NCBI GenBank assembly: GCA_025980335.1 | Contig: JAICXO010000004.1 | Location: 1 to 45,124 of the forward strand | Source: Sphingomonas sp. | Lineage (GTDB): Bacteria > Pseudomonadota > Alphaproteobacteria > Sphingomonadales > Sphingomonadaceae | Direction: 5' to 3' | Length of the DNA stretch: 45,124 nt | Shown: in pieces, positions 43,391-45,124 of the stretch | How the letters are laid out: each line of letters starts with the position of its first letter | Numbering within the stretch: position 1 is the first letter of the stretch | Made by a program: the position numbers and the translations under genes | Notes under the pieces: model-generated | Seen by the model: only the letters and a program-made list of their open reading frames with translations | The model's database searches: none | What the model was told of the DNA's origin: nothing

Positions 43391-43406
43391 GCCGTCCTTC
43401 CGTCAG

Positions 43407-43483
43407 GTCATTGCGAGCGAAGCGAAGCAATCCAGAACGTCACAGCAGCTGGATTGCTTCGTCGTCTCACTCCTCGCAATGAC
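43407..43483. repeat. Inverted repeat (GTCATTGCGAG...CTCGCAATGAC family)
   Basis: The arms GTCATTGCGAGCGAAGCGAA with GCAATCCAG (43407-43435) and its near complement ending CTCGCAATGAC (43449-43483) enclose a short spacer. This is the widespread 'CATTGCGAGCGAAGCGAAGC' bacterial repeat. It lies between the MATE start and the valS-end copy at 43496. Confidence 0.85.
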
Positions 43484-43495
43484 GCCGTGTGGGTC

Positions 43496-43543
43496 TTACC
43501 CCAAGCGATCCAATGCGGCACGCAGCCGTTCGGCCTCAGCGGC
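43496..43543 (-). pseudogene. Detached copy of the valS 3' end
   Basis: Read on the minus strand, 43543-43496 encodes [16 protein letters not shown] and a TAA stop. The true valS ends [15 protein letters not shown] at 43977, with nearly the same nucleotides over 48 bases (core GCGGCACGCAGCCGTTCGGC in both). Similarity stops abruptly beyond that. It has no start and is too short to be a gene; it is a duplicated or displaced valS terminus. Confidence 0.8.
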
Positions 43544-43976: not shown

Positions 43977-45124
43977 TTATCCCAGCCGCTCCAACGCGGC
44001 ACGCAGCCGTTCGGCTTCCGTCGCCTTCGCCTCGTGATCCGCTCGAGCTTTCTCCACGGCCTCCGGCTTCGCGCGTTCGGTGAACTTCGGATTTGCGAGC
44101 CGCTGAGCGAGGCTGTCGCGTTCCTTTTCCGCTGCTCCGGCGGCCTTCGACAAGCGGTCGATCTCGTCGCCAAGTGCAATCACGTCCGCGAGCGGAAAGG
44201 CGACGGTCACCTCTCGAACCACGATCTGTGCCGAACCTGGCGACACGCGGTCGGCTGCGGAAATCCCGCCGATCTTCGCCATGCGGTCGAGGGTCTGGCG
44301 ATGTTGCTCCATGAACCCGATCATCGCCCTGTCGCCGCCGATCACCTGCGCATCGACCTTCTTGCTCCACGGAATATTCAGCTCGGCGCGCATCGTTCGG
44401 ACCGCGTCGACGATCTCGATCAGCGCGCCGATCTCGCGGGCAGCTTCAGGGTCGATTTCAACCTCGGGCTCCGGCCATTTCGCGACAATGAGATCGTAGG
44501 GCCTCGTCCCCATCGCGTGCCACAGCTCTTCGGTGATGAAGGGCATCAGCGGGTGGAGCATGACGAGGATCTGGTCGAACGCCCACGCGGCGACGCGGCG
44601 GGTTTCCTCCTGGCCCCCCCTACCGCTTGCGCGAGGGGAGTTCGAAAAATCGACCATTTCGCGATGGTCTATTTTTCGAACTGGGGTGGGCGCGTTGTGC
44701 GAGTGTTCCCACGACGGGCCCACCCCTTCGGCGCTGCGCGCCTCTTCCCCTCCCGCAAGCGGTAGGGGAGCAAGGTGGCCCTTCACCAGCTCGACGTACC
44801 AGTCGCAGAAGGTGCCCCAGACGAAGTGGTAGATGGCGTCGGCCATCTCGTCGTAGCGAAGCTCATCGAACGCGCGGTTCAGCTTCGCGAGCGTCTCGAC
44901 CACCTCGCCGACGATCCAGCGGTTTACCGGAAGCTCGGCGGCGGGGGCGGCGATGCTGTCGCTCGCGCCGACGCCGTTCATCTGCAGGAAGCGCGCGGCA
45001 TTCCACAGCTTGGTCGCGAAGTTGCGGTAGCCCTCGACGCGCTTCTCATCGAGCTTGATGTCGCGGCCCTGGCTTTCCATCGCCGCCAGCGTGAAGCGCA
45101 GCGCGTCGGCGCCGTACTTGTCGA
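43977..45124 (-). CDS. valS: Valyl-tRNA synthetase, C-terminal part (5' end outside window)
   Basis: The C-terminal 382 residues of ValRS, running off the right edge; the frame continues upstream as [20 protein letters not shown]. The anticodon-binding domain ([51 protein letters not shown]) is followed by the coiled-coil arm (about the last 70 residues, [20 protein letters not shown] to RAALERLG). Between [11 protein letters not shown] and [14 protein letters not shown], where relatives have about ten residues, there are about 55 extra residues encoded by a palindromic repeat, in frame and without a stop. Charges tRNA-Val with valine in the cytoplasm; the gene should be essential. Confidence 0.95.
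44617..44768. repeat. Palindromic repeat inserted in frame in valS
   Basis: A 152-bp element bounded by perfect 15-bp inverted ends (CCCCTACCGCTTGCG at 44617-44631; complement at 44754-44768). Inside are an 18-bp stem with one mismatch and a TTCGCG loop (44640-44681) and a 9-bp stem GGGGTGGGC/GCCCACCCC (44683-44726). The same kind of end, (C)CCCTACCGCTTGCGG, marks dispersed intergenic repeats in sphingomonads. It is translated as part of valS. Confidence 0.88.

Follow-up and report, generated by a model that had tools for sequence, protein, structure and literature searches.

Palindromic elements are carried by Wolbachia as well as by Rickettsia. Those of Rickettsia (RPEs) are 105-146 bp palindromes that lie in frame within conserved protein genes, and a guanylate kinase containing one is translated and active, its substrate affinity being altered, according to the parts of PMC2229807 that deal with these elements. 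The same parts describe MITEs with open reading frames, i.e., the 107-bp Correia element and ERIC, which are fused in frame with genes (PMC2229807). GTAG and CGTC REPs, in turn, have been reported within dnaE2, other repair genes and tRNA synthetase genes, the synthetase cases being from X. oryzae and from two sphingomonads, 'E. lithoralis' and S. alaskensis (PMC3733652). In its sections on such genic copies, that report names Xanthomonas recB as a single case in which different REPs share roughly one site, and states that, for other genes belonging to a functional category, the sites of the REPs differ (PMC3733652).

Here we describe a palindromic repeat lying in frame within valS, the gene of valyl-tRNA synthetase (ValRS), in the window, i.e., the whole 45,124-nucleotide stretch of DNA that was analysed. 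The repeat, of a family that we call A, is an instance of an already known kind of event, and the parallel with the RPEs drawn in the first-pass annotation is supported: family A is likewise palindromic, dispersed and in frame within conserved genes, the likeness being one of description. What is new, and was not found in print, is that unrelated repeat families lie repeatedly at identical ValRS loops across an order; among the papers listed by our literature searches, none was recognizable as a description of palindromic inserts in ValRS, the nearest report being PMC3733652. The ValRS repeats thus differ from the Rickettsia and Wolbachia elements in that they occur in another order and in that at least three unrelated families share one landing loop. 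They also depart from the REPs that the genic sections of PMC3733652 place at different sites, the ValRS loops being reused across an order. The explanation we favor, and consider probable, is that selfish palindromic DNA is tolerated in flexible loops and translated there as ordinary protein, the same loops being reoccupied over time.

The window constitutes contig C132 of a genome (G000) assembled in 151 contigs and 83% complete, whose top named relatives by ValRS score, among the matches listed, are Sphingomonas caseinilyticus, S. edaphi, Sphingomonas sp. URHD0057, S. alba and S. sediminicola. GTDB places species such as these in Sphingomicrobium. The valS fragment at the contig end carries the Pfam domains Anticodon_1 and Val_tRNA-synt_C. 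A second valS was not found in this 83% complete assembly, from which the N-terminal part of the gene is likewise missing, the contig ending within it. At the other end of the fragment, the last 42 bases of valS (43977-44018) recur at 43496-43537 (86%), 481 bp downstream, which looks like a duplicated 3' end of the gene with an inserted stretch between the two copies.

The first-pass annotation had described a 152-bp element with perfect 15-bp inverted ends and two internal hairpins, lying in an open frame of valS. Its coordinates and size proved correct (Table 1), the minus-strand frame is stop-free through the whole element, and the two arms can pair at 22 of 23 positions, with no mismatch among the first 15. 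Both internal hairpins are present, and the fold adds a third, small one, which gives the element a direction and has counterparts, as seen by eye, in other family A copies. The element was right in size and position but not in being single: it is a composite, in which a 44-bp hairpin is nested in a family A element. A DNA search with the element reported no further copy of this nested hairpin in G000, and its identity with a known element was rejected after its 19-base head gave no exact match in viral_contigs. The strong mRNA hairpin that had been foreseen was also recovered by computation, at -115.9 kcal/mol (z -12.1); 200 dinucleotide shuffles gave a mean of -64.5 (sd 4.3), and none of the 200 was as low.

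Table 1. Coordinates, in the window, of valS and of the parts of the palindromic element within it
Feature	Position	Strand	Basis
valS, C-terminal 381 codons, open at contig end	43977..45122	-	ORF and Pfam
57-residue loop codons (residues 115-171 of the fragment)	44610..44780	-	loop alignment
Family A composite palindromic element	44617..44768		arms, genome search and fold
Terminal palindromic unit, one end	44617..44639	+	arm complementarity and unit pattern
Terminal palindromic unit, other end	44746..44768	+	arm complementarity and unit pattern
Nested 44-bp hairpin	44639..44682		missing from the other 10 family A copies
Family A inner hairpin arms	44683..44726		arms and fold
Small GC hairpin adjoining one terminal unit	44730..44742		fold

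In the AF2 model of the valS fragment, the insert is predicted to be a disordered loop between two helices of the anticodon domain, in agreement with its earlier placement: it lies between helices spanning residues 90-113 and 167-189, pLDDT is below 50 at residues 128-165, and the flanking helices have block means of 84-95 overall, at ~94-95 from residue 171. At the same position, hereafter loop 1, only two residues (657-658) stand between the aligned pieces of 1gax, the Thermus ValRS. The loop is 57 residues long in the window vs 4-5 in most members of the genus, a net gain of ~53, ~50 added residues having been proposed from the sequence.

We surveyed 110 ValS loci, comprising 80 named loci (the best 80 of at least 576 matches to a query that itself carries an insert) and 30 loci from the same genus; 108 are distinct once one of each of two duplicate pairs is dropped. 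Alignment with relatives showed a loop of 4-5 residues at 27 of the 30 same-genus loci, the exceptions being the window and G036 (both family A) and G016 (family B, a different repeat). Over all 110 loci, loop 1 measures 4-5, 8-20 or 23-61 residues, and the frame reads through it in every case, with 0 breaks. Sequence of family A, B or C was recognized in the loop of 15 of the 108 distinct Sphingomonadales ValRS, fourteen of these loops having at least 29 residues and one having 23. Seven belong to family A, with two related kinds of end (L020, i.e., the window, L021, L064, L074, L083, L094 and L113), five to family B (L022, L072, L084, L085 and L105) and three to family C (L069, L080 and the short remnant L081). 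Occupied loops were found in the named hosts Sphingomonas populi 3-7, Sphingorhabdus soli D-2Q-5-6 and Sphingomonas sp. ID1715. Eleven of the 14 long loop-1 inserts fold at z <= -2.5, and L074, L105 and L084 fold only weakly better than their shuffles. At E <= 0.001, blastn joins the loop inserts within families only, A, B and C being mutually unlinked. Judged by sequence, then, unrelated repeats occupy the identical ValRS loop in other sphingomonads, of which the first-pass annotation had no knowledge. In the other sample, whose genomes were chosen irrespective of inserts, 36 same-genus genomes gave a match, and three of them have long loop-1 inserts (30 were assessed from fetched loci and six from the gaps separating match pieces); among 24 genomes of other families, judged from such gaps, there were 0.

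Family B is itself widespread in its hosts: a family B word was found in 10 of 10 genomes searched (a set outside which the host of L085 lies), with 0 hits for the reversed control, and among the matches listed such words often occur as close inverted pairs. By eye, family B (L022) has CGTC near the head of its unit. In G000 it gave two matches at E <= 0.001, neither of them at valS, and a short B word occurs seven times.

Inserts of this type are found in a second ValRS loop as well, located after the LGWP motif (placed by eye), a region that in G000 lies past the contig end. Of the 15 long inserts in this loop, 13 have z <= -3, and in seven genomes both loops carry a long insert. When the two loops are pooled, 24 of 31 long inserts are hairpin-like (z <= -3) vs 1 of 55 at six other insert-prone sites, or 25/31 vs 3/55 under a laxer rule (z <= -3 or arm >= 9). 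The Fisher value of this contrast takes no account of kinship, and the two loops were singled out with the data already in view. Two neighboring sites at ValRS core columns ~424-450 hold 40 long inserts, one of which has z <= -3; these are variable insertions of another origin, and because of them it can be said that not every tolerant ValRS loop is used. The second loop of one locus, L131, has an insert of 68 extra residues that includes the similar repeat-derived peptides PPFVLSEVEGQ and PPFVPSEVEGQ in tandem.

Within G000, family A amounts to 23 terminal-unit matches, 22 of them in 11 inverted pairs and one stray, the reversed-pattern control giving 0. The unit was also found in 29 of the 61 genus genomes searched, the reversed pattern matching one site in all. 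Given this dispersal, family A is presumably mobile. Like the GTAG and CGTC REPs, whose 20-40 bp palindromic units often form dimers and lie inside repair and tRNA synthetase genes in the genic sections of PMC3733652, it shows the REP/REPIN trait of a 20-40 bp palindromic unit mostly arranged in inverted pairs; by eye, neither GTAG nor CGTC was apparent at its ends. A RAYT-type mobilizing enzyme was looked for and not found in G000 (83% complete), where PF01797, the domain of the RAYT tyrosine transposase of the GTAG type, has 0 matches; it is present in 1 of 28 same-genus genomes, G000 included, nine further genus genomes of the other sample having been outside this draw. In the same sections, CGTC REPs are not tied to the RAYT tyrosine transposase either (PMC3733652). 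Family A also resembles the MITEs with open reading frames (the Correia 107-bp element and ERIC) in being a short, non-autonomous, in-frame repeat, for which neither a target-site duplication (sought by eye, the empty and filled loops differing too much) nor a cognate transposase (PF01797 in G000) was recognized.

Nine of the 11 copies in G000 measure 98-115 bp, the window copy and a copy in carA (L012) each reaching 152 bp. Beside its family A terminal unit, the carA copy has an extra hairpin-like sequence of its own, and the valS copy of S. populi (L094) has a third, separate one, both as judged by eye. The extra sequences in these three copies suggest that an element, once inserted, attracts or tolerates further ones.

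As for location, flanking frames and Pfam domains place 8 of the 11 copies in frame within seven conserved genes, i.e., valS, recF, a dnaE-type polymerase gene (two copies), leuS, the gene of a 2-oxoacid dehydrogenase E2, mutL and carA. Of the remaining three, one closely precedes pheT, another a nadB-like start, and the third is found at the N-terminal border of a frame resembling hemW (Pfam domains served to name pheT and hemW, whereas nadB was named by eye). The leading unit reads as PLPLAGG in seven of the eight genic copies, that of mutL being in another frame. In the orientation of extraction, the frame starting with PLPLAGG is stop-free in 11/11 copies on the minus strand and in 9/11 on the plus strand, and of all 66 frames over the 11 copies, 40 are stop-free.

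These locations bear on the earlier assignment of the element to a repeat family normally found between genes, which is not supported in G000, with 8/11 copies in conserved genes, and fits its relatives better. In a blind test, a noisy one that uses codon usage on both flanks of a copy to call a through-frame (intragenic), 5 of 22 family A copies in G083, G031 and G036 were intragenic, the valS copy of G036 being left out of the 22. The same test called 5/11 copies intragenic in G000. Its misses there were recF and both dnaE sites, and in G036 the mutL copy, all intragenic by Pfam, which also supports intragenic dnaE copies in G083, G031 and G036. Two of the five positives in relatives are without Pfam support: L164, which was outside the Pfam scan, and the second L180 copy, Pfam giving no match for L180:4004-5467. 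G000 seems unusual in how large a share of its family A is intragenic.

A second palindromic family, of the CATTGCGAG...CTCGCAATGAC type, is more abundant in this genome (41 match rows) and has a copy in the window at 43395-43490. The blind test was applied to 20 further copies, those highest among the 41 rows once the copy in the window and a short partial match had been skipped, and 0/20 were intragenic. Yet all 20, cut with up to ~20 flanking bases, have at least one stop-free frame, and 54 of their 120 frames are stop-free vs the 40/66 of family A. Stop-free frames were therefore discarded as a sufficient cause of the entry of family A into genes; since this second family is absent from genes in the test, tolerance and stop-free frames alone do not decide which family enters them.

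Several of the genic copies lie between domains. That of carA separates its two domains (56 residues vs 7 in chain 1t36_B), that of leuS sits at the junction of the catalytic and editing domains (38 residues vs 13 in 6q89_A), and that of the E2 gene precedes the E3-binding domain. Sites are also shared between genomes: G000 and G036 each have an element at the mutL site. One dnaE-type polymerase gene of G000 appears to hold two family A elements (C62:11806-11901 and C62:14080-14190; L004 and L005). One dnaE site is filled in G000, G083 and G031, the frame being different in G083, and is empty in G036; another is filled in G000 and has a single unit in G036.

In the mechanism we propose, a non-autonomous palindromic repeat, built in the manner of a REP dimer from two inverted units with a spacer hairpin between them, would insert at the flexible loop of valS, the copy in the window also gaining the nested 44-bp hairpin. 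The insert would then be transcribed and translated as normal coding sequence, yielding ~53 disordered Pro/Gly/Ser/Glu-rich residues that the enzyme would tolerate at presumably little cost. Surviving copies would be in frame, and in loops or linkers, because insertions that break the frame or hit the fold are lost, and the same loops would be occupied repeatedly because few spots in an essential protein tolerate inserts, and perhaps because an old insert offers the next one a harmless site. The 110/110 unbroken frames, the AF2-predicted disorder and the interdomain sites in carA and leuS point to simple translation of a disordered segment that is tolerated.

We consider it improbable that the inserts descend instead from a single ancestral insertion in the sphingomonad ValRS loop, later diverged, converted or lost. 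Many loops outside the genus do have 8-20 residues with no recognizable element, as remnants might, L072 and L085, both with B-type inserts, are 97% alike, and the seven genomes with long inserts in both loops point the same way. On a ValS tree of the 110 loci (loop left out, quick search, LG+G4, 54 of 107 inner branches starred), the families are moreover clustered when only inserted rows are considered, with 4 changes vs a shuffled mean of 6.8. Such clustering is expected if lineages draw on their own repeats or inherit some of their inserts. Over the tree as a whole, however, the distribution of the families calls for no fewer than 13 changes of state, among which gains and losses are not distinguishable, the three families have no mutual similarity, and at one dnaE site the element is read in different frames in G000 and G083 and is missing from G036.

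Domestication, whereby the hairpin or the segment would be useful, e.g., by slowing the ribosome between folding units or by adding tRNA contacts, also strikes us as quite improbable. A mid-gene hairpin of -116 kcal/mol, the position of several copies between domains and the reuse of sites in valS, dnaE and mutL would all suit it; the patchy presence (3/36 same-genus genomes with a match) would not, and since sequence and length vary and unrelated repeats replace one another, tolerance fits better than function. Removal of the segment from the RNA, or its bypass by the ribosome, leaving a normal protein, might be imagined from a strong hairpin with matched ends, but is very improbable, 0/110 ValS loops breaking the frame even though no more than 40/66 frames of the local copies are stop-free. 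That the insert stems from faulty assembly or binning of a metagenome-assembled genome, to be considered with 151 contigs, 83% completeness and a site ~360-500 bp from a contig end, is hardly credible when contigs of 99 kb to 1.3 Mb carry elements at loop 1 in the three named strains and 29/61 genus genomes have the family A unit, against one site for the reversed pattern.

The tolerance of selfish repeats in flexible loops can be taken further, to a more speculative proposal that we regard as unlikely though worth stating: the two ValRS loops and those of the dnaE-type polymerase and MutL may serve as order-wide docking sites, in which palindromic repeats of unrelated origin build up, take each other's place and become nested, old inserts being preferred targets or an mRNA hairpin at these inter-helix and interdomain positions pausing translation usefully. 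If our account of tolerated and reoccupied loops is true, a phenomenon best known from intracellular bacteria becomes a comparative system with culturable members, where one loop of one essential enzyme either lacks an insert or holds one of three unrelated repeats. Whether inserts are tolerated, drawn to older inserts or used would become testable in this system, which would also represent a route for selfish DNA to write new disordered protein segments.

Repeat-like units were also observed in an open frame adjoining the dnaE-type gene in two relatives, at L180:4305-4395 (G036) and L170:2164-2183 (G083), in each case before a similar protein stretch. Pfam gave no match for the open frame of G036; judging by gene order, the frame may be imuB.
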